The notes under the pieces were generated by a model. It was not told where the DNA came from, did not search any database, and saw nothing but the letters and a program-made list of their open reading frames with translations. The position numbers and the translations under genes were made by a program. Positions 10,207-19,987 of a DNA stretch of 64,000 nucleotides are shown one piece after another; within the stretch, counting starts at the first letter, position 1, and each line of letters starts with the position of its first letter. Source of the DNA: Agrobacterium tumefaciens (lineage in GTDB: Bacteria; Pseudomonadota; Alphaproteobacteria; Rhizobiales; Rhizobiaceae); assembly GCF_013318015.2 (NCBI RefSeq), contig NZ_CP115842.1, positions 1,859,001 through 1,923,000 on the forward strand, read 5' to 3'.

Positions 10207-11166
10207 TCACTTTTCAGCCGTCGGCCTTTTCGTCAGGTGCGACTGGATGGCGGAGACCATGAGGCTGAGAGCGGCATAGGAGTTGGAGATTGCCTCTTCC
10301 CGCGGCAGAAGGATGTAGCGACCGTTGCGGCAGGCCTGCAGAAAATTGCAGAAACCCGGCATTACAGCTTCCATCATGTCGATTTCGGCCTGCGGAGAAG
10401 CGCCGGTATCGGAACGATACGGATCGAAAATAAAGTCGGCGTCGAGTTCCGGCAAGCGCTCGGCGCTGATCTCGATGCGCTCGCCGTCTGGAATATTGTC
10501 GATGATGGCTGGGAAACGAAAACCGGCATCTCGCAGCACCCGGCCGAGCGCACGATACGTATGGTAGACGCTGATCTTGCCATTTAGTGGCTGGAACACC
10601 GAGACAGTGCTCGCGCCGGTATCGACCGAGGCCTTCAGCGCTTCGATCTGCGCCCGGTAGCGTCGGTCCAGAACGGCAAGTCGCGCCTGCGTGCCGGTCA
10701 GTTCAGCCAGCACCCTGTAGATATGCGGCGCGCCGTCCTTCGTATTGTCGATGGCGACGGTCGGGGCAATCTGTTCCAGTTTTTCGATAGGGGTGGGGCG
10801 GTCCGGTTCGGTCAGGATGAGATCGGGCTTGAGGGCGACTATCGCTTCCAGATCGGCGTTGATGGAGCCGATATAGGCAATGTCGCTATTGTCGAAATCG
10901 ACACCGGTCAGAATGGCGCTGGAGCGCAGGTAGGGTTTGCCGTCTCCACCCATGCGGCCATGGCTACCCACTGGTATCACACCCAATTCTATCAGCGGGA
11001 TGGTGAGATCGATGTCGTGCAGGGCGACGATACGTTTCGGCTGTAAGGGGACAGACACGGTGCGGCCGAGGTCGTCGGTAAAGGTCCGGCTGCCCTCCGC
11101 GTGAGCAACGCATACCCCCAGAAGAAGTCCGGCGGTTGAAACGAAAGCGAGAATGGTATTGCGCAT
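10207..11166 (-). CDS. Iron-siderophore ABC transporter, periplasmic binding protein
   Basis: This is a class III (FecB/FhuD, Peripla_BP_2) solute-binding protein. The start MRNTILAFVSTAGLLLGVCVAHA is a clear signal peptide with cleavage after AHA. The mature part begins with RTFTDDLGRTVSVPLQPKRIVAL, characteristic of ferric-siderophore/B12 binders, and continues with LKPDLILTEPDRPTPIEKLEQIAP. The start at ATG 11166 lies 7 bp after the permease gene. It is last in a leftward operon of ATPase, two permeases and binding protein. With a TonB receptor transcribed divergently, the substrate is most likely a ferric siderophore, perhaps hydroxamate-type; the exact ligand is unknown. Confidence 0.88.
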   Translation of the reverse strand: MRNTILAFVSTAGLLLGVCVAHAEGSRTFTDDLGRTVSVPLQPKRIVALHDIDLTIPLIELGVIPVGSHGRMGGDGKPYLRSSAILTGVDFDNSDIAYIGSINADLEAIVALKPDLILTEPDRPTPIEKLEQIAPTVAIDNTKDGAPHIYRVLAELTGTQARLAVLDRRYRAQIEALKASVDTGASTVSVFQPLNGKISVYHTYRALGRVLRDAGFRFPAIIDNIPDGERIEISAERLPELDADFIFDPYRSDTGASPQAEIDMMEAVMPGFCNFLQACRNGRYILLPREEAISNSYAALSLMVSAIQSHLTKRPTAEK

Positions 11167-11173
11167 GAAAGAC

Positions 11174-12214
11174 CTATAGGCGGTGCCGGTGAAACCAAAG
11201 AAGGGTAAGAAGCGTGGGGGCGCCCACGGCCGAAAGAACGAGCCCGGTCGGCAATTCCAGCGGTGAAAAAGCGGTTCGGGCAATCGTATCGGCAATTGCA
11301 ACCAGCGTCGCTCCTGCCAGACCCGCGCCCATAACAAGCCCGGTATGGGAGCTGCCCGGCAGCAAAAGTCGGGCGATATGCGGGCCGATCAGGCCGACAA
11401 AACCGATGCTGCCGATAAAGGAGATACAGGACGCGGTGAGAACGACCGCAAGGATGACATGCAGCGCTGATAGCCAGCGGGTGTGAACGCCGAGTGCCGC
11501 TGCATTATTGTCGCCGAGCGCCTGAACATCGGCGGCACGGGCGGTGAGGAGAACAAGACAAAGGGTGATGGCCAGGATGGCTGAAAGGATGGAGACGGCG
11601 CTCCAGGATGCGCCTTGCAGGTTTCCTACCATCCAGATCATCGCCGTCTGCAAATTGCGGATATCAAGCGATGCCATAAGGATAAGCAGCAAAGCTGATA
11701 AAAACCATGAGAAGCCGATACCCGTCAGAACGAAGCGCAGCCGTGAGGTGACACCGGAAAGCGAAAAGACGATTGCAGCACTCGCCATCCCACCGGCGAT
11801 ACCGGCCAGGGGGCGGAATATCACCGGCAGGGATGGCAACAAAAACAGGCAGCCCAGCACCGCGAGCAACGCGCCTTCGCGCACGCCGAGCAGACCCGGG
11901 TCGGCAAGGCTGTTGCGTGTGGTCGCTTGCATGATGGCACCGGCAACGCCCAGCATGGCGCCGGAGACCATGGCAAGCGCCAGGCGCGAAAAGCGAAAGT
12001 CGAGAACCATCACGGCGTCATTCGAGGCGGGATCATTATTTCCAGCGGTCAATAAAGACCACAGGGAGGAGGCCGGGATATATTGGCTGCCGGCGGTGAG
12101 CGACCAGACGGCGACAAGCGTAAGGCAAAGGGTAAGCGTCACCATAATAGCCAGCCGCTGCGGCAAGAGGCGAATTGAAAAATGCGCCAGTCTGATGACC
12201 CTGTAACGGTTCAT
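11174..12214 (-). CDS. FecCD-family iron-siderophore permease (second)
   Basis: The 346-residue inner-membrane protein has the FecCD (BtuC-like) fold of about ten helices. Diagnostic segments are LDFRFSRLALAMVSGAMLGVAGAIMQ, NSLADPGLLGVREGA, the coupling region ALGVHTRW and FIGSIGFVGLIGPHIARLLLPG. The start ATG overlaps the upstream permease stop by 4 bp. Presumably it pairs with the upstream permease to form a heterodimeric channel, in contrast to homodimeric BtuC. The operon also supplies the ATPase and binding protein. Confidence 0.9.
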   Translation of the reverse strand: MNRYRVIRLAHFSIRLLPQRLAIMVTLTLCLTLVAVWSLTAGSQYIPASSLWSLLTAGNNDPASNDAVMVLDFRFSRLALAMVSGAMLGVAGAIMQATTRNSLADPGLLGVREGALLAVLGCLFLLPSLPVIFRPLAGIAGGMASAAIVFSLSGVTSRLRFVLTGIGFSWFLSALLLILMASLDIRNLQTAMIWMVGNLQGASWSAVSILSAILAITLCLVLLTARAADVQALGDNNAAALGVHTRWLSALHVILAVVLTASCISFIGSIGFVGLIGPHIARLLLPGSSHTGLVMGAGLAGATLVAIADTIARTAFSPLELPTGLVLSAVGAPTLLTLLWFHRHRL

Positions 12215-13254
12215 TTCAGCACCCTGCGCACCAACCAGAGAAAGACCGGGGCCCCGACAAGGCCGGTCATTGCCCCAGTCGGCAGTTCCTTTGGCGCAAG
12301 GATCAGGCGGGCGGCGAGATCGGCGGCGATCAGTAAAACCGCGCCGCCGAGCGCGGCTATGGGAATGGCAAGCAGAAGCCGCCCCGTTCTTAGCCGCGAC
12401 ACGAGTGGCGGCACCACCAGACCGACGAAACCGATAGGCCCGGTGACGGCTATGGCCGCGCCACAGAACAGCGATATTGCGGCAAGCGCCAAGATTCGGG
12501 TCGAGCGGACAGGTACGCCAAGCGTTGTGGCGGTGGTGTCACCCAAAGCGAGCAGATCGAGTCGCGGCGCGACGACAAATGCAAGGAGAAGTGCGATAAT
12601 GGCGGCAGGCAGGGCGGCGGCGACGGCTGCCATCGAAATGCCTGCCGTATCGCCAACCAGCCAGAAGCGCATCTGCTGTAATGTTTCCTCGTTGAGAATG
12701 AGGATGGCGGAGGTAAGGGTTCCGGCAAGCGTCGACAGCGAGATGCCGCAAAAGACGAGTTTTGCTGGCGTCAGACCCTGCCGTCCGGCGGACGCGAGCA
12801 GAAGGACGAGCCAGAAGCTGATGCCTGCGCCGGTGGCCGCCAGCACAGGGCGCAAGGCCGGCGTTGCGATTAACCCCAGCGGCGTCACGGTCGCCGCGAC
12901 GACGGCGAGGCTCGCGCCCGCATTTAACCCCAGAATATGCGGCTCGCCCAGCGGGTTTCGAAGCAGGGTCTGCAACAGAAGCCCTGCCACTCCAAGGCAG
13001 GCGCCGGCTTGCAGCGCCGCAAGCAGACGCGGAAGCCGCAGACGCAGCAAAACCTGCTGGTCGAAATTGCGGGCGTCGTAGGAAAATATCAGGTCGTTCA
13101 GAACATGTGGGGCAATGGCGCGCGGGCCAGAGCCAATATGTGCCAGAATCAGAAGCAGCATGGCCAGAAGCATAAGCAGTGTTGCCACAAGCGCGCGGCC
13201 ATAGGCCTGTTCCTGCATGGCGGGCTTGCTGTAGCTCATCCTGGCGAACATCAT
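12211..13254 (-). CDS. FecCD-family iron-siderophore permease (first)
   Basis: A polytopic permease of about 347 residues, with RLRLPRLLAALQAGACLGVAG, NPLGEPHILGLNAGAS, TTLGVPVRSTR and GPIGFVGLVVPPLVSRL, the conserved FecCD blocks including the ATPase-contact helix. The start chosen is the ATG at 13254, overlapping the ATPase stop (ATGA); a second ATG follows immediately. A longer in-frame reading into the ATPase gene is rejected as a shadow. It is translationally coupled both upstream and downstream. Confidence 0.9.
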   Translation of the reverse strand: MMFARMSYSKPAMQEQAYGRALVATLLMLLAMLLLILAHIGSGPRAIAPHVLNDLIFSYDARNFDQQVLLRLRLPRLLAALQAGACLGVAGLLLQTLLRNPLGEPHILGLNAGASLAVVAATVTPLGLIATPALRPVLAATGAGISFWLVLLLASAGRQGLTPAKLVFCGISLSTLAGTLTSAILILNEETLQQMRFWLVGDTAGISMAAVAAALPAAIIALLLAFVVAPRLDLLALGDTTATTLGVPVRSTRILALAAISLFCGAAIAVTGPIGFVGLVVPPLVSRLRTGRLLLAIPIAALGGAVLLIAADLAARLILAPKELPTGAMTGLVGAPVFLWLVRRVLK

Positions 13255-14075
13255 GCCGCGCCAGTCCGTCCGGGCAGGGGAAGGAAAACCGGCCTCGCCG
13301 TGACCGGATGCGTCAGCTGGGCGACAGGCATGTCGAAAACGTCCGAGATGATTTGGGCATCGCACAGCGTCGCTGTTTCCAGCCGGTGCCGCAGCCGTCC
13401 ATCCTTTAGAAAAATCAGGTGATCGGCATATTGCAGGGCGAGATTGATATCATGCAGCACGGCAACGATCGTGCGGTTGTGGTTGGTGACGAGGCCAGCC
13501 AGCATATCCAGCACCTCTATCTGGTGGTGCAGATCCAGAAATGTCGTCGGTTCGTCCAGCAGGATGACATCTGTCTGCTGCGCAAGCGCCATGGCGATCC
13601 ACGCGCGCTGGCGCTGGCCGCCGGAGAGGCTGTCGATTGCTCTTTCGGCAAGGCCTGACATGCCGGTCACGGAAAGTGCCTCGTCCACTGCGTCCGCGTC
13701 TTCCTCGCTCCACTGCTTCAAAAATCCCTGATGCGGGTAGCGGCCACGGGAGACGAGATCGAAGACCGAAAGCCCTTCCGGCGTGTGGTTCTGCTGTGCC
13801 AGCATGCCAAGCCGCTTCGCCACTTCCCGTGTGGGATGATGAAATATGTCGCGGCCGTCGAGAAGGATATGGCCGCCTGCCGGGCGGTGCAGGCGGGCAA
13901 GTGCGGAGAGAAGCGTCGATTTTCCCGACCCGTTCGGACCGAGCAGAACGGTGAATCGGTTCGGGGCAACGTCTATGGACACGTCGGCAAGCACGGGCGT
14001 GTCGCCATAGGCAAACTCAATTGCCTTGGCCGCAAGACGTATGTCCGCGCGTCTATTTTTGCCACCGTCGTCCAA
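13251..14075 (-). CDS. Iron-siderophore ABC transporter ATPase (FepC/FhuC-like)
   Basis: A 274-residue ABC ATPase with Walker A GPNGSGKST, Q-loop AQQNHTPEG, signature [15 protein letters not shown], Walker B DVILLDEPT and switch His in AVLHDINLAL. LAQQTDVILLDEPTTFLD is typical of the iron-siderophore/B12 class. The start is TTG at 14073-14075; no ATG lies nearby, and GGGGAAG sits about 5 bp upstream. It is the first gene of the uptake operon and is transcribed away from the receptor gene. An iron-box motif lies about 40 bp upstream of its start, so expression should rise when iron is scarce. Confidence 0.92.
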   Translation of the reverse strand: MDDGGKNRRADIRLAAKAIEFAYGDTPVLADVSIDVAPNRFTVLLGPNGSGKSTLLSALARLHRPAGGHILLDGRDIFHHPTREVAKRLGMLAQQNHTPEGLSVFDLVSRGRYPHQGFLKQWSEEDADAVDEALSVTGMSGLAERAIDSLSGGQRQRAWIAMALAQQTDVILLDEPTTFLDLHHQIEVLDMLAGLVTNHNRTIVAVLHDINLALQYADHLIFLKDGRLRHRLETATLCDAQIISDVFDMPVAQLTHPVTARPVFLPLPGRTGAA

Positions 14076-14115: not shown

Positions 14116-14130
14116 TGACTGTAGTAGTCA
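14116..14130 (-). promoter_or_regulatory. RirA iron-responsive operator (IRO box), ATPase-operon side
   Basis: The 15-mer TGACTGTAGTAGTCA fits the rhizobial IRO consensus TGA-N9-TCA bound by the iron-sulfur repressor RirA. It lies 41 bp upstream of the ATPase TTG start. Its reverse complement TGACTACTACAGTCA differs at one position from the second box at 14271-14285. Confidence 0.7.
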
Positions 14131-14270: not shown

Positions 14271-14285
14271 TGACTACTACATTCA
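14271..14285 (+). promoter_or_regulatory. RirA iron-responsive operator (IRO box), receptor side
   Basis: TGACTACTACATTCA again fits TGA-N9-TCA. It lies about 62 bp upstream of the receptor ATG at 14348. Flanks are conserved with the first box in inverted orientation (TTGATGA...GTAGTAGTCAA on the opposite strand here), so the two divergent promoters carry matching operators. Confidence 0.7.
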
Positions 14286-14347: not shown

Positions 14348-16519
14348 ATGCATGACGGTTCGATGATCATTCAGGTAGGCTCGCGAGCGCTGTTGGCGTT
14401 GCTTCTGGCCGGAGTTGCCCTGCCTGCTTTTGCGCAGGAGAATACGGCACCGAAGAAAAATGCCGACGAGACGACCGTGCTTGAGACGATAACCGTTAAT
14501 GCCGACGTCAAAAAAGGCGCGCGCGGTTATCAGCCGATAACCACGGGCACTGCGACGCGCACCGAGACGCCGATCCTCGATATTCCGCAATCGGTTAACG
14601 TCGTGACCAATGAAGTGCTTCGCGACCAGCAGGCGCGCTCGCTGGATGATGCTCTCGCCAATGTCAGTGGCGTTACCCAGTCAAACACGCTGGGCGGCAC
14701 GCAGGATGCCGTTATCCGCCGTGGTTTTGGTGACAACCGCGACGGCTCGATCCTCATCAACGGGCTAAAGACCGCATTGCCGCATTCCTTCAACGATATG
14801 GCGGAGCGAGTGGAAGTGCTGAAAGGGCCAGCCTCCACGCTCTACGGCATTCTCGATCCGGGCGGCATGGTGAATGTCGTGACGAAGAAGCCCGAGGATA
14901 CTTTCTCTGCCGAAGCCTATTCGCGCTTCTCAGCCTTTGGGGCGGGCAAGTATGGTGCATCCGGCGGTTTCGATGTGACCGGACCTATTGCGGGAACGGA
15001 TTTTTCCTATCGCCTGATCGGTCAGGGGGAGAACAGCGACTACTGGCGCAATTTTGGTGAGAAGAAGAACTGGCTGATCGCACCCTCGCTAAAATGGAGC
15101 GGCGAGGATACCGACATTACGGTTTCCTATATGCATGAGGATTACAGCGTGCCCTTCGATCGCGGCACGATCTTCGATCCGGCGACAGGAAAGGCAATCA
15201 ATGTCAGCCGACGTCTCAGGCTGGACGAGGCCTATAACATCACCGATGGCAAATCCGATCTGGCGAGTATCTCAATAGACCGCCAATTGTCCGAAGACTG
15301 GAAACTGTCGCTGAACTACGCCTATAGCCAAAACGAATATTCCGACAACCAGGCCCGCGTGATGGGTTACAATTCCCGCACGGGGCAGGTGACGCGGCGC
15401 GCTGACGCCACGCAATATTCCACCATCTACAACCACGCGGCCCGCGCTGACCTGACCGGTGAGGCTGATATTGGTGGCCTGCGCAACGATCTGCTGTTCG
15501 GCATGTCCTACGATTACAGCGACACGCTGCGCACCAACATGTTGCGATGCGCAAATTCCTCGAATTTCAACATTAACAATCCCGTTTACGGCAGGTTGCC
15601 GGCGTGCACGACGGTCAGGGCCGTCGACAGCGACCAGACGGAGGAGCTTTCCACTGCTTCGATCTATATGCAGGACGCCGTGCATCTGGGCGATCAATGG
15701 ATCGCTGTCGGCGGTTTGCGCTACCAGTATTACGACATCTATGCCGGCAAAGGCCGCCCCTTCGTCGTCAACACCCAGAACAATGGCGGCGAACTCATCC
15801 CCAATGCTGGTCTCGTCTACAAGATCACGCCGAATGCATCCCTTTATGCCAATGTGGCGAAAACCTTCCGCCCGCAATCCTCGATCGGAGCCTATTATGG
15901 CGGGCTCGATCCGGAGGAGGGCATTTCCTATGAGGTGGGCGCCAAGTTCGACCTGTTCACCGGTTTGAATGCCAATATTGCTTTGTTTAATGCCCGCAAG
16001 CGCAATGTCGCCTATTCGGAGGATGTAGGCGGTGTGTCGACGGTGAAGGCCGCCGGTCTCGTTCGCTCGCGCGGGGTGGAGGTGGATATTGCCGGCAACC
16101 TTACCGATAGTCTCGATCTAATCGCAAGTTATGCCTATACGGACGCTCTCGTTCTCGAAGATTCCACCTATGCCGGCAAGCGCTTGCCGAATGTCGCGCG
16201 TCACACCGGCTCGCTGTTTCTTGCCTATGATGTCGGTGAGGTCGGGCCGAACGGCAACACGCTGCGGATCGGCGGAGGAGTGCGGGCCGTCGGCCAGCGT
16301 GCCGGCATCAACGACAATTCCTATGACCTGCCGGGTTATGCCGTGTTCGACGCCTTTGCGACCTATACGCTTCAGCTGGAGAAACCGGTGACCCTACAGC
16401 TCAATCTGAAGAACATCTTCGACAAAAGCTATTATACCTCATCCATTGGCTCCACCAGCTACGCCAATGCTGTCGGCGAGCCCTTCAACGTCAGCCTCAC
16501 GGCCAGCGTGAAATTCTAA
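14348..16519 (+). CDS. TonB-dependent siderophore receptor (FhuA/FoxA type)
   Basis: The 723-residue outer-membrane receptor has a signal peptide (IIQVGSRALLALLLAGVALPAFA), a TonB-box-like ETITVNA, a plug domain (about 55-180; IPQSVNVVTNEVLRDQQA, VEVLKGPASTLYG, GGMVNVVTKKP) and a 22-strand barrel ending in Phe (SLTASVKF). The plug pattern and size match siderophore receptors of the ferrichrome/ferrioxamine group. TonB-ExbBD would drive import to the divergent ABC system. ATG 14348 is taken as the start; ATG 14363 would also give a good signal peptide. An IRO box precedes it. The precise siderophore cannot be read from sequence. Confidence 0.92.
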   Translation: MHDGSMIIQVGSRALLALLLAGVALPAFAQENTAPKKNADETTVLETITVNADVKKGARGYQPITTGTATRTETPILDIPQSVNVVTNEVLRDQQARSLDDALANVSGVTQSNTLGGTQDAVIRRGFGDNRDGSILINGLKTALPHSFNDMAERVEVLKGPASTLYGILDPGGMVNVVTKKPEDTFSAEAYSRFSAFGAGKYGASGGFDVTGPIAGTDFSYRLIGQGENSDYWRNFGEKKNWLIAPSLKWSGEDTDITVSYMHEDYSVPFDRGTIFDPATGKAINVSRRLRLDEAYNITDGKSDLASISIDRQLSEDWKLSLNYAYSQNEYSDNQARVMGYNSRTGQVTRRADATQYSTIYNHAARADLTGEADIGGLRNDLLFGMSYDYSDTLRTNMLRCANSSNFNINNPVYGRLPACTTVRAVDSDQTEELSTASIYMQDAVHLGDQWIAVGGLRYQYYDIYAGKGRPFVVNTQNNGGELIPNAGLVYKITPNASLYANVAKTFRPQSSIGAYYGGLDPEEGISYEVGAKFDLFTGLNANIALFNARKRNVAYSEDVGGVSTVKAAGLVRSRGVEVDIAGNLTDSLDLIASYAYTDALVLEDSTYAGKRLPNVARHTGSLFLAYDVGEVGPNGNTLRIGGGVRAVGQRAGINDNSYDLPGYAVFDAFATYTLQLEKPVTLQLNLKNIFDKSYYTSSIGSTSYANAVGEPFNVSLTASVKF

Positions 16520-16647
16520 GGGTACAGGCGGCGCAATCCATCTGGGTCTTGCCGCTGCTGATGAAAGCAGACTCGTGCGTTTCTTGCATGTCTGCGCTGC
16601 ATTAAAGCCTATTTAATATGCGGCAAAACCGGGTATCTTGTTTTCAT

Positions 16648-16798
16648 CGAAGCGATGCACCTCCTCCCGCAAAGCTTCGGATTGAGATGACCCTATCCTC
16701 CTCCCAAGGGTTGTCTTGTGAACAATGGCACTCCTCCTCCCAGCCGTTGTTCGAAATTTCGGAAAGCCTGCCGCACCTCCTCCCGCGGCAGGCTTTTT
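16648..16798 (+). ncRNA. Tandem array of four CCUCCUCCC-loop small RNAs (cuckoo/CcsR-like)
   Basis: Four consecutive hairpins each expose CCTCCTCCC in the loop. Hairpin 1 is 16648-16679 (CGAAGC/GCTTCG arms), hairpin 2 is 16686-16715 (GATGACCCT/AGGGTTGTC, two G-U pairs), hairpin 3 is 16720-16752 (GAACAATGGC/GCCGTTGTTC, one G-U pair) and hairpin 4 is 16763-16796 (12-bp perfect arms, then T5). The loops are at 16660-16668, 16697-16705, 16733-16741 and 16776-16784. The arms differ in sequence but the loops are identical, so the structure is under selection. Hairpin 4 looks like a Rho-independent terminator, fixing plus-strand transcription. Known relatives are the CcsR RNAs of Rhodobacter and the alphaproteobacterial cuckoo family, whose C-rich loops resemble anti-Shine-Dalgarno sequence. 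No DUF1127 gene precedes them here. The promoter is unclear: CTTGCA (16583) and CCTATTT (16608) are poorly spaced. Confidence 0.8.
16763..16798 (+). terminator. Rho-independent terminator (fourth small-RNA hairpin)
   Basis: AAAGCCTGCCGC and GCGGCAGGCTTT form a 12-bp perfect stem around a loop containing CCTCCTCCC, followed by TTTTT within the arm end and tail. It ends the small-RNA transcript about 20 bp before the convergent dinB 3' end. Confidence 0.8.
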
Positions 16799-16817
16799 CG
16801 TTTTCGGGACAGGGGCA

Positions 16818-17897
16818 TCACAGGCCAAGCGCGAGCTGCGCTTCCTCTTCACTCTCTTCGGTGCTCAGCGAGGAAAGGGTAATCCCCAACAGCCTTACCG
16901 GACGTTTGAATGGAAAGACGGAGGCAAGCAGGCTCTCTGACATCTCCTGGATCGTTGCGAGGTCAGACACGGCTCCCGACACTGTTTTGCTGCGTGTCGC
17001 CTGGCTGAAATCCGAATATTTGATTTTCACGGTCACCGTCTTTCCCGTGATGTCGTGGGCCTCGCAATAACGCCATACTTTCTGAGCCAAAGGGCCAAGC
17101 TCCGCCTTCGCCAGATTGAGATCGTCGATATCCTCGGCGAATGTGTCTTCTGCACCGACAGATTTGCGGATGCGATCGGGCTTGACCTGTCGTTCATCGA
17201 TACCGCGGGCGATGTTGTAGAAGTAAGGGCCGGACTTCCCGAAATGCTGTTGCAGAAAACCGAGTGATTTCGACTTGAGATCGAGCCCTGTTTCGATGCC
17301 GTGCCGTTTCATCCGCTCGGCCGTGGCGGGTCCTACGCCATGGAATTTCTTGACGGCCAGGGCTTCAACAAAGCCAGGCCCATTCTTCGGCGTAATGACG
17401 GCCTGGCCATTCGGTTTGTTCAGGTCGCTTGCCATCTTGGCCAGAAACTTGTTGTAGGAGATGCCGGCAGATGCATTGAGGCTGGTGACCGCCTTGATTT
17501 TTGCGCGGATCTCCAGCGCAATTTCGGTGGCGATCTCCATGCCTTTCAGGTTTTCGGTGACATCGAGATAGGCTTCGTCGAGCGATAGCGGCTCGATCAG
17601 AGGGGTATATTCGGCAAATATCTCGCGTATCTGTTGCGACACCTGCCGGTATACCTCGAAGCGTGGCGGTACGAAGATCAGATCCGGGCATTTCCGTTTG
17701 GCAGTGACGGACGGCATGGCTGAATGGACGCCGAAGGTTCTCGCCTCGTAACTCGCCGCAGCCACCACGCCTCGTGCGGCCGATCCGCCGACGGCGACCG
17801 GCAGGCCGCGAAGTGCGGGGTTGTCGCGTTGCTCCACCGATGCATAAAAGGCATCCATGTCGATATGGATGATCTTTCGAACAGCCGTGTTATCCAT
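16818..17897 (-). CDS. dinB: DNA polymerase IV (Y family)
   Basis: An error-prone translesion polymerase. Catalytic motifs are visible: IIHIDMDAFYASVEQR (first Asp), GVVAAASYEARTFGVHSAM, and LSLDEAYLDVT (second acidic pair). The little-finger domain is present and the C-terminus is QLALGL, a sliding-clamp-binding type motif. The ATG at 17897 is chosen (359 residues); a GTG at 17930 would overlap the upstream helicase gene by 10 bp. It follows the uvrD-like gene closely, so the pair probably forms a damage-inducible operon under the SOS box at 20083-20097. Confidence 0.94.
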   Translation of the reverse strand: MDNTAVRKIIHIDMDAFYASVEQRDNPALRGLPVAVGGSAARGVVAAASYEARTFGVHSAMPSVTAKRKCPDLIFVPPRFEVYRQVSQQIREIFAEYTPLIEPLSLDEAYLDVTENLKGMEIATEIALEIRAKIKAVTSLNASAGISYNKFLAKMASDLNKPNGQAVITPKNGPGFVEALAVKKFHGVGPATAERMKRHGIETGLDLKSKSLGFLQQHFGKSGPYFYNIARGIDERQVKPDRIRKSVGAEDTFAEDIDDLNLAKAELGPLAQKVWRYCEAHDITGKTVTVKIKYSDFSQATRSKTVSGAVSDLATIQEMSESLLASVFPFKRPVRLLGITLSSLSTEESEEEAQLALGL

Positions 17898-17920
17898 CGT
17901 TCCAGCCTGTACGATCTTCC

Positions 17921-19987
17921 CTATTTCCACATCGCCCGCATCCGCGCGCCTACATCGATGCGGATCTGCTGCGCGCTGCGCTCGGAGGCTGCGGCCGAAA
18001 CCAGGGGCCAGGTGGCGGTTTCAAAGAACTGCAGCAAAGTTGCCGGTATGAAGCGGGTTCTAGCGGCATAGACATGCCGGTCGCCCTGCGCGTTCTGGCC
18101 ATGGGTGAAGAACCGTTGCGGGGTTATCAGTGACAGGCTGTCCTTGGCGCGCGTCATGGCGACATAGAGCAGCCGGCGTTCCTCCTCGACTTCATGCGTG
18201 GAGCCGACACCCAGATCGGAGGGTATGCAGCCATCGACCACGTTCAGGATAAAGACGGAACGCCACTCCTGGCCTTTTGCCGAATGAATGGTTGAAAGCG
18301 TCAGATAATCCTCATCGAGCAGCGGCACGCCTGCCTGATCGCTGGTGGCATCCGGCGGATCGAGCGTCAGTTCGGTGAGGAAGCGTTCGCGGGAAGGATA
18401 GCCGCCGGCAATCTGCTCGAGTTGCAGCAAATCGGCCTTCCGCGTCTCGGCATCCTCATGGATGCGTTCGAGGTGGGGCTCATACCAGAGCCGCGCCTGC
18501 TCGATATCTGATGGCCAGCCGCCGTGCAATTTTCGCATGTTCGCCAGCAACTGCACGAAGGATACCCAGTCATCACCGGTTTTGGGTGGCGGCGGAATTT
18601 CGGCTAGGGCGAGCAGAGGTTCAGGATCCGCCGCAATCTTATCGAGAATATTGCCGGCTTTCTTCGGCCCGATACCCGGCAGCATCTGAAGTAGCCTGAA
18701 ACCTGCGACGCGGTCACGCGGGTTTTGCGCGAAACGCAATACCGCCAGCATGTCCTTTACATGGGCACTGTCGAGAAACTTCAGGCCGCCAAATTTGACG
18801 AAGGGAATATTGCGGCGTGTAAGTTCAACTTCAAGCGGCCCGCTATGACTGGAGGTGCGAAACAGCACGGCCTGTTGCTTCAGCGTCATGCCGGTCTCAC
18901 GATTGGCCAGCACCTGGTCGATAATGAAGTTCGCCTGCTCGGTTTCGCTTTTTACTGTCACGAGCTTCGGTCGCTCGAGCGACTGTCGTTCGGTCCAGAG
19001 GTTTTTGGTGAATCGCTCACGGGCAAGGTCGATGACACCATTGGCGGCAGCCAGTATCGGCTGTGTCGAGCGATAGTTGCGATCAAGGGTGATAATATCG
19101 GCAGCCGGGCTGAACGATGCCGGAAAATCAAGGATATTGCGCACCGTTGCTGCCCGGAACGAATAGATCGACTGGGCATCGTCACCTACCACGGTCAACC
19201 CGCGACCGCCCGGCTTCAGTGCCATCAGCACCGCGGCCTGCAGCCGGTTGGTATCCTGATATTCGTCGACCATAACGTGGTCGAAACGATTGCCGATATC
19301 GCCTGCAAGGTCGGGATCGCTGACCATCTGGGCCCAGTAGAGCAGAAGGTCGTCGTAATCGAGAACGTTCTGGGCCTGCTTGGCCTCCACATAGGCGGCG
19401 AATAATTGCTTGAGCTCTTCTTCCCAGCTGGACACCCATGGATAGTGCTGGCGCAGGATTTCTTTCAGCGGCGTTTGTGAATTGACGGCGCGCGAATAGA
19501 TCGCAAGGCAGGTGCCCTTTGTCGGAAAACGGCTCTCGGTCTTGGAGAAACCCAGTTCGTGACGGGCAAGGTTCATCAGATCAGCGCTGTCTTCGCGGTC
19601 GTGGATCGTGAAATCCACGTCCAGTCCAATCTGTTCCGCATAGATTCGCAAGAGGCGCGCGCCGATCCCGTGAAACGTGCCGGACCAGGCCATCGCATCC
19701 GTGAGGGCTCCGGCGTTAGCGCCGATGACCTGCTTGCAGATACGCTCGACACGACGCGACATTTCGGAGGCGGCACGCCGTGAAAACGTCATCAGCAGGA
19801 TACGGCGAGGATCGGCGCCATTGACGATCAGATGCGCCACCCGGTGCGCCAGCGTATTGGTCTTGCCGGAACCGGCACCGGCGATAATCAGCAACGGTCC
19901 AGCCGTGTGTCCGCCTGAAGGCCCAACGCCATGTTCCACGGCCTTGCGTTGCTGCTCGTTCAGTTTGTCCAGATAGGCAACCGCCAT
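17921..19987 (-). CDS. UvrD/Rep-family ATP-dependent DNA helicase
   Basis: A 688-residue SF1A 3'-5' helicase. The motifs run in order: Q-motif LNEQQRKAVEH, I (IAGAGSGKTNTLAHRV), II (VMVDEYQDTNRLQ), III (VGDDAQSIYSFRAA), IV (TLDRNYRSTQPIL), V (LSTIHSAKGQEW) and VI (EEERRLLYVAMTRAKDSL). It unwinds DNA in repair or recombination. It is shorter than E. coli UvrD (720) and lacks its typical C-terminal tail, so it may be a paralogue rather than the main UvrD. ATG at 19987. dinB follows 23 bp downstream, and a LexA-type box lies about 95 bp upstream. Confidence 0.93.
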   Translation of the reverse strand: MAVAYLDKLNEQQRKAVEHGVGPSGGHTAGPLLIIAGAGSGKTNTLAHRVAHLIVNGADPRRILLMTFSRRAASEMSRRVERICKQVIGANAGALTDAMAWSGTFHGIGARLLRIYAEQIGLDVDFTIHDREDSADLMNLARHELGFSKTESRFPTKGTCLAIYSRAVNSQTPLKEILRQHYPWVSSWEEELKQLFAAYVEAKQAQNVLDYDDLLLYWAQMVSDPDLAGDIGNRFDHVMVDEYQDTNRLQAAVLMALKPGGRGLTVVGDDAQSIYSFRAATVRNILDFPASFSPAADIITLDRNYRSTQPILAAANGVIDLARERFTKNLWTERQSLERPKLVTVKSETEQANFIIDQVLANRETGMTLKQQAVLFRTSSHSGPLEVELTRRNIPFVKFGGLKFLDSAHVKDMLAVLRFAQNPRDRVAGFRLLQMLPGIGPKKAGNILDKIAADPEPLLALAEIPPPPKTGDDWVSFVQLLANMRKLHGGWPSDIEQARLWYEPHLERIHEDAETRKADLLQLEQIAGGYPSRERFLTELTLDPPDATSDQAGVPLLDEDYLTLSTIHSAKGQEWRSVFILNVVDGCIPSDLGVGSTHEVEEERRLLYVAMTRAKDSLSLITPQRFFTHGQNAQGDRHVYAARTRFIPATLLQFFETATWPLVSAAASERSAQQIRIDVGARMRAMWK

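Follow-up and report, generated by a model that had tools for sequence, protein, structure and literature searches.

'Cuckoo' RNAs are defined by a variable number of hairpin modules with C-rich loops and diverged stems, and a single family with a variable hairpin number, as well as the four-hairpin form SmelA099, was put forward in 2011 (PMC3927594, section 2.7). In S. meliloti, LsrB activates NfeR1, and the anti-Shine-Dalgarno (aSD) loops of NfeR1 silence ntrB and transporter mRNAs, according to the accessible text of PMC10746234. We compared with these systems an array of hairpins found in a 64,000-nt stretch of Agrobacterium tumefaciens DNA (the window). The array resembles alpha-r14/NfeR1 (Smr14C2) in its CCUCCUCCC hairpin loops, variable stems, final terminator-like hairpin, multiple copies per genome and apparent promoter of its own with an LsrB-type site, but it has four hairpins rather than three. 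By its published description (PMC3927594), SmelA099 has the same four-hairpin layout and CCUCCUCCC loop. The CcsR1–4/ccaF1 locus (CIN1) of Rhodobacter sphaeroides is similar in that, as the papers describe it, four homologous C-rich-loop sRNAs stand in a row; in contrast to CIN1, the present array has no upstream DUF1127 gene, and an LsrB-type box is found instead, no RpoH-type promoter being evident by eye. AbcR1 (Rfam RF00519) is likewise an sRNA with aSD motifs that carries the same LsrB box in the source genome, but it belongs to a different family and lacks a CCUCCUCCC array.

We assign a probability of roughly 0.8 to the reading that this is an independently transcribed four-hairpin ar14 sRNA, activated by LsrB/VtlR, whose aSD loops silence target mRNAs, and that its DUF1127 partner was lost or displaced and a siderophore receptor gene became its upstream neighbor. 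Structure, family, promoter box and the neighbors of relatives are shown in silico; that the array is expressed, that LsrB binds to and controls it, that it acts on targets and how the locus arose are inferences drawn from them. What is new is the context of the array, namely its promoter and neighbors. We do not claim the LsrB link as unpublished, since LsrB reportedly controls many A. tumefaciens sRNAs (work by Eisfeld in 2021).

Four hairpins with a common loop form an ar14 array

An earlier sequence-only reading had described four hairpins sharing one loop between positions 16648 and 16798, and our loop search and fold prediction agree on this arrangement (Table 1). The sequence CCTCCTCCC occurs on the + strand at 16660, 16697, 16733 and 16776, and once on the − strand at 12064, unrelated to the array; these five occurrences in the window compare with 0.41 expected, and a count of at least 5 was reached in 0 of 100 shuffles. 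In each of the four predicted hairpins CCUCCUCCC is unpaired, the terminator hairpin comes last, and the weakest is hairpin 1, which has an internal loop. Folded as a whole (160 nt), the array reaches −64.1 kcal/mol (z = −6.7), a value equalled in 0 of 200 shuffles. The stems have diverged and yet stay paired, as had been noticed: when 3′ arms were swapped among the array's four hairpins, all 12 mismatched combinations were weaker (−1.1 to −9.4 kcal/mol) than the cognate arms (−12.2, −13.2, −14.4 and −24.2 kcal/mol), and thus no 5′ arm has a better partner than its cognate 3′ arm.

Table 1 Features of the array locus (positions in the window)
Feature	Positions	Strand	Remarks
TonB-dependent siderophore receptor, variable upstream neighbor	14348..16519	+	TIGR01783, 347.9 bits (cut-off 223.5)
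Identity break with same-species genome G034, approximate	16573		just 5′ of activator box
LsrB/VtlR activator box GCATGTCTGCGCT (candidate)	16586..16598	+	fits published GCAT-N3-TG-N3-T
Conserved block GCAT-N2-CTG-N3-TGCA	16586..16601	+	aligned copies
−10-like TATCTT (inferred)	16634..16639	+	majority residues in aligned copies; no clear −35 hexamer
Hairpin 1	16648..16679	+	−12.2 kcal/mol; CCUCCUCCC loop 16660–16668
Rfam RF02344 (ar14) match	16678..16800	+	102.2 bits, E 1e-17, full length 1–123
Hairpin 2	16684..16717	+	−13.2 kcal/mol; CCUCCUCCC loop 16697–16705
Hairpin 3	16719..16753	+	−14.4 kcal/mol; CCUCCUCCC loop 16733–16741
Hairpin 4	16761..16798	+	−24.2 kcal/mol; CCUCCUCCC loop 16776–16784; appears to double as intrinsic terminator
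dinB (DNA polymerase IV), convergent neighbor of array	16818..17930	−	

Hairpin 4 looks like an intrinsic terminator, in line with the original description, because a T run lies 3′ of it and a terminator script that allows wider loops detects it. It is absent from the output of a consensus terminator scan because its loop of 10 nt falls outside the 3 to 8 nt that this scanner permits.

The array belongs to ar14, the family of alpha-r14 and NfeR1 within the 'cuckoo' RNAs, which bears out the previous assignment to the cuckoo/CcsR family of C-rich-loop sRNAs. An Rfam scan of the window gave one match above cut-off, that to RF02344, for which the curated gathering cut-off is 58.8 bits. The ar14 model comprises three hairpins and covers hairpins 2–4, which leaves hairpin 1 outside the match as an extra module, and the array thus departs from the three-hairpin layout of ar14. 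Because three- and four-hairpin forms had already been grouped together (PMC3927594), we treat it as a variant within the family; it has the C-rich-loop modules, variable in number and with diverged stems, that define the cuckoo RNAs (section 2.7 of the same paper). A covariance-model scan of the whole genome (6.0 Mb, six contigs), as had been proposed, found four ar14 copies, all above cut-off, and all 10 genomic pairs of CCTCCTCCC spaced 20–45 nt fall within them. Copies L001 and L002 have three loops, and L003 (the present array) and L004 have four. Each of the 39 genus genomes has ar14 matches, all above cut-off; of 61 genomes sampled across the family, 60 have a match, and in 56 it exceeds the cut-off. 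In other genera, some ar14 matches follow one another directly (G064:C45:28034-28528, G074:C1:1272388-1272745 and G079:C1:893953-894316), which suggests longer arrays.

Stem pairing is maintained among related arrays

To this comparison the genus contributed 139 ar14 matches, of which 93 were examined (L001–L004, L085–L113 and 60 lower-scoring matches) and 46 higher-scoring ones were left out. Nine of the 93 lacked a cluster of two exact loops and were set aside (L162, L164, L166, L167, L168 and L170–L173); the remaining 84 and eight named loci make up the 92 arrays used below. Structure was assessed on 44 distinct four-loop arrays (47 less three duplicates) that were picked for four exact loops, and the invariance of the loop is therefore due in part to selection.

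Across the 44 arrays, 98.4% of cells are paired, compared with 38.0–53.9% when the partner is slid by 1–3. The covariation score was equalled in 0 of 500 shuffles, as was the number of cells changed on both sides (74, against a shuffle mean of 27.3), and the 8 pairs that changed on both sides were matched in number by 6 of 500; the shuffle control leaves relatedness in place, and the slid-partner control agrees with it in direction. Compensated changes in hairpins 1 and 3 include G-C for C-G at one pair (17 sequences) and U-A for C-G at another (19 sequences). The count of further pair types (23) gives no support, because 496 of 500 shuffles equal it. RNAalifold did not recover hairpin 2 from the 44 arrays, in which its stem misaligns; when arms were swapped between arrays (n = 47), cognate hairpin 2 arms averaged −14.6 kcal/mol versus −9.5 kcal/mol with a foreign 3′ arm. 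The same swap had no effect on hairpin 4 (−24.1 kcal/mol both ways) because its stem is nearly invariant across arrays.

Loops that stay constant while stems drift would also be expected if the loops served as decoys, sequestering an RNA-binding factor or a ribosomal component, rather than as target-specific seeds. However, the constancy is that of arrays picked for four exact loops, and loop-dependent silencing of a target is reported for NfeR1 in the accessible text of PMC10746234, and we consider a decoy role very unlikely.

A candidate LsrB/VtlR box precedes the array

The array seems, from the conserved sequence upstream of it, to have its own promoter. The LsrB/VtlR consensus GCAT-N3-TG-N3-T, proposed for Brucella and A. 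tumefaciens, lies at −61 to −49 of PabcR1 (PMC8844928, section 5), and the box upstream of the array, at about −58 relative to the predicted 5′ end, fits it exactly. On this fit LsrB may bind at 16586–16598. The motif of NfeR1 is given differently, as TGCA-N6-GCAT, in the accessible text of PMC10746234. For S. meliloti an NtrC site has been described as well.

The box recurs in related copies. After 31 of the 92 copies were dropped for having no 5′ anchor, 60 distinct anchored copies were left to compare; in 55 of these, but in 0 of 180 control segments, the block GCA-N3-CTG-N3-TGC begins 58–60 nt upstream. The published consensus is present in 39 of the 44 anchored copies outside the three-loop class, whereas none of the 16 anchored three-loop copies and none of 300 control segments have it. 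When unanchored copies are included, it precedes 41 of 47 four-loop, 4 of 37 three-loop and 5 of 8 two-loop copies, and it lies upstream of 16 of the 17 arrays linked to dinB (see below). Among the 31 unanchored copies, 24 carry GCANNNCTGNNNTGC and 10 the published consensus, and the extended box is absent in 12 of the 92 arrays (L005, L114, L116, L119, L123, L129, L131, L134, L137, L157, L158 and L159). In the three-loop copies (L001, L002 and their relatives), GCAA mostly replaces GCAT in the activator box, a substitution that may correspond to a different affinity for LsrB.

GCAT-N3-TG-N3-T is a short motif, with 13 matches on both strands of the window, one of which is near the array. A more stringent version of the box, built from the ar14 copies, matches at 8 places in the 6.0-Mb genome, compared with 1 for a reversed control pattern, and these 8 comprise the present array, copy L004, two AbcR homologues and four others; the two AbcR-linked matches played no part in deriving the pattern. 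One AbcR box lies directly 3′ of a LysR-family gene, in the order thioredoxin reductase – LysR – AbcR – AbcR – ArsR. The accessible text of PMC7486931 describes vtlR-abcR1-abcR2 of A. tumefaciens in that same arrangement, with direct activation of abcR1 by VtlR, and reports that VtlR controls AbcR1 and not AbcR2, with which the failure to find the published consensus at the second AbcR RNA of the pair agrees. Among the matches listed, no NCBIfam model exceeded its cut-off for this LysR gene, whose LsrB name rests on its neighbors. Through the published binding consensus, the four-hairpin C-rich-loop RNAs of the genus are tied to the LsrB/VtlR circuit.

Other promoter types were also sought. 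A consensus scan of the window found no sigma-70 promoter. By eye, CTTGCA-N19-CCTATTT is present upstream of the array, but its CTTG is not conserved and the RpoH1 promoter of S. meliloti, CTTGAA-N16-CCTATAT, has a spacing of N16 rather than N19; an RpoH promoter was set aside on this spacing, again by eye.

Two LsrB-type boxes were noted in passing. One stands before a gene for an ABC substrate-binding protein of the glycine-betaine type (OpuAC; L205, G000:C1:540427), and the other lies about 102 nt before the model match of an AbcR homologue on contig C3 (L203, G000:C3:384564-384742).

The array adjoins dinB without a DUF1127 partner

Seventeen of the 92 arrays adjoin dinB in convergent orientation, and the last loop ends 108–193 nt from the dinB match. 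These arrays are dinB-linked by selection, eight coming from the named dinB matches listed and nine from the genus. Among the matches listed, 80 named dinB loci include eight with an array and 72 without, and the five most similar dinB loci among them (88–90% identity) all have one. Within the genus, 8 of 43 four-loop arrays examined stand beside dinB. The gene upstream of the 17 dinB-linked arrays is DUF1127 in 6, the present receptor in 4 and another gene in 7.

The sequence-only reading had emphasized that the usual DUF1127 partner is missing. This is correct for the locus itself, as no DUF1127 gene lies in the approximately 1.5 kb upstream of L003, a stretch occupied by the receptor gene, but the array is not exceptional in this respect, because over the same distance the gene is also missing from 14 of the 43 four-loop arrays that were examined within the genus and from 31 of 31 three-loop copies. 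The absence carries information, as DUF1127 precedes the other 29 four-loop arrays, including copy L004, 86 kb away, where it lies 245–388 nt before the first loop. The pairing, common for four-loop arrays, is thus separable from the array. Since 6 of the 17 dinB-linked arrays have DUF1127, loss or displacement of this partner is probably the simplest history of the locus.

The frequency of DUF1127 before four-loop arrays in the genus and beside dinB, together with the maturation of CcsR RNAs by CcaF1 in Rhodobacter (accessible text of PMC10253847), would suit a CcsR/CIN1-type product that requires a DUF1127 RNA-binding protein in order to mature, with the protein supplied in trans from the locus 86 kb away. 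We regard this as rather unlikely. In A. tumefaciens, short DUF1127 proteins are reported to work through protein contact with the kinase PhoR (accessible text of PMC12501420); the gene is absent upstream of the 14 four-loop arrays mentioned above, and an RpoH-type promoter was not evident by eye.

The upstream siderophore receptor is a variable neighbor

The gene upstream of the array had been called a siderophore receptor with its stop at 16519; the stop is correct and the TIGR01783 match supports the name. Siderophore ABC-transport genes (10207–14075, − strand) diverge from it on the opposite side. Two TGA-N9-TCA boxes, which we take to be of the RirA/IRO type, precede the receptor at 14116–14130 and 14271–14285, where the rate in the window as a whole predicts 0.13.

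In G034, a genome of the same species, the array, its promoter and dinB are nearly identical to those here, but the upstream gene is an FkbM-domain methyltransferase that points away; the receptor is not beside the array, and no close match to it was found at E ≤ 1e-200. Of the 39 genus genomes, nine carry a close receptor orthologue (at least 88% identity), and in four of these nine (G000, G013, G026 and G027) the array is beside the receptor. In G016, G023 and G024, the arrays listed lie away from it. In G003 and G011, the receptor is followed by its own GC-rich hairpin-T terminator and then by a uvrD-like helicase gene (L198 and L199), and neither array nor dinB is found in the stretch 3′ of the receptor examined. 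A uvrD-like gene also follows dinB in 7 of the 17 dinB-linked loci, including two that do not belong to the genus set; G003 and G011 may therefore have lost the array and dinB just as well as the present locus may have gained them. Whether by loss or by gain, the link between receptor and array is confined to four of the loci seen, and the array has probably come to stand beside a gene for iron uptake recently and incidentally.

The sequence-only reading had raised iron-linked expression of the array by read-through from the receptor. Read-through is possible, because a script detected no terminator-like site in the interval from the receptor stop to the array at the four loci that have both, and a separate terminator scan of the window found none there either. 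The script's negative is weak, however, because it disallows G-U pairs and missed the array's own terminator in three of the four loci. A transcript from the receptor gene could extend through the array as far as hairpin 4, which would give the array a secondary input confined to this lineage. Read-through is not conserved (G034; G003 and G011), and it is not required, because a conserved block with the published LsrB site precedes the array.

A stronger version makes the array the 3′ UTR of the receptor mRNA, produced mainly by read-through under iron limitation and then processed into sRNAs. In its favor are the lack of a detected terminator, in contrast to the G003 and G011 orthologues, and the two putative iron boxes before the receptor. 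Set against it are the weakness of the script, the presence of the receptor beside only 4 of the 17 dinB-linked arrays and not in G034, and the fact that the block shared with G034 from about 16573 carries its own activator box; we judge the 3′ UTR origin to be quite unlikely. An intermediate scheme, in which an LsrB-driven aSD array was captured as the 3′ end of a receptor gene without a terminator, such that iron starvation is a second input and the receptor message releases a translational silencer, strikes us as unlikely.

Proposed mechanism and candidate targets

In the reading that we prefer, activation by LsrB/VtlR and independent transcription, the LysR-type regulator would bind at about −58 and activate the array's own promoter. 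Transcription would start near 16644–16647 and yield an RNA of about 155 nt with hairpin 4 at its 3′ end. Its four exposed CCUCCUCCC loops would serve as redundant aSD seeds on the ribosome-binding sites of target mRNAs, probably those of transporter and metabolic genes, and block their translation. By analogy with NfeR1 as described in the accessible text of PMC10746234, the array RNA would thus be an LsrB-responsive blocker of ribosome-binding sites. In the lineage, an array beside dinB would have had its DUF1127 gene lost or displaced, and the receptor gene would have come in upstream.

According to the accessible text of PMC7143759, northern blots in S. meliloti gave reliable detection of only one of the six copies, and the copy at 16648–16798 could therefore be nearly silent. 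On the same grounds the array could be a relic copy without expression, but its promoter box and compensated stems are conserved among relatives, and a relic seems distinctly improbable to us.

A search for perfect 9-nt complements in the arrangement GGGAGGAGG-N3-9-ATG gave 8 matches versus 3 in a reversed control; these are too few to define a target class, and perfect complements were rejected as such. No obvious transporter is among the 8 candidates. Four of the frames preceded by a complement span only 7–18 codons, and the other four, of at least 280 aa each, appear by eye to be acyl-CoA dehydrogenase-, intradiol dioxygenase-, amidohydrolase- and alcohol dehydrogenase-like.
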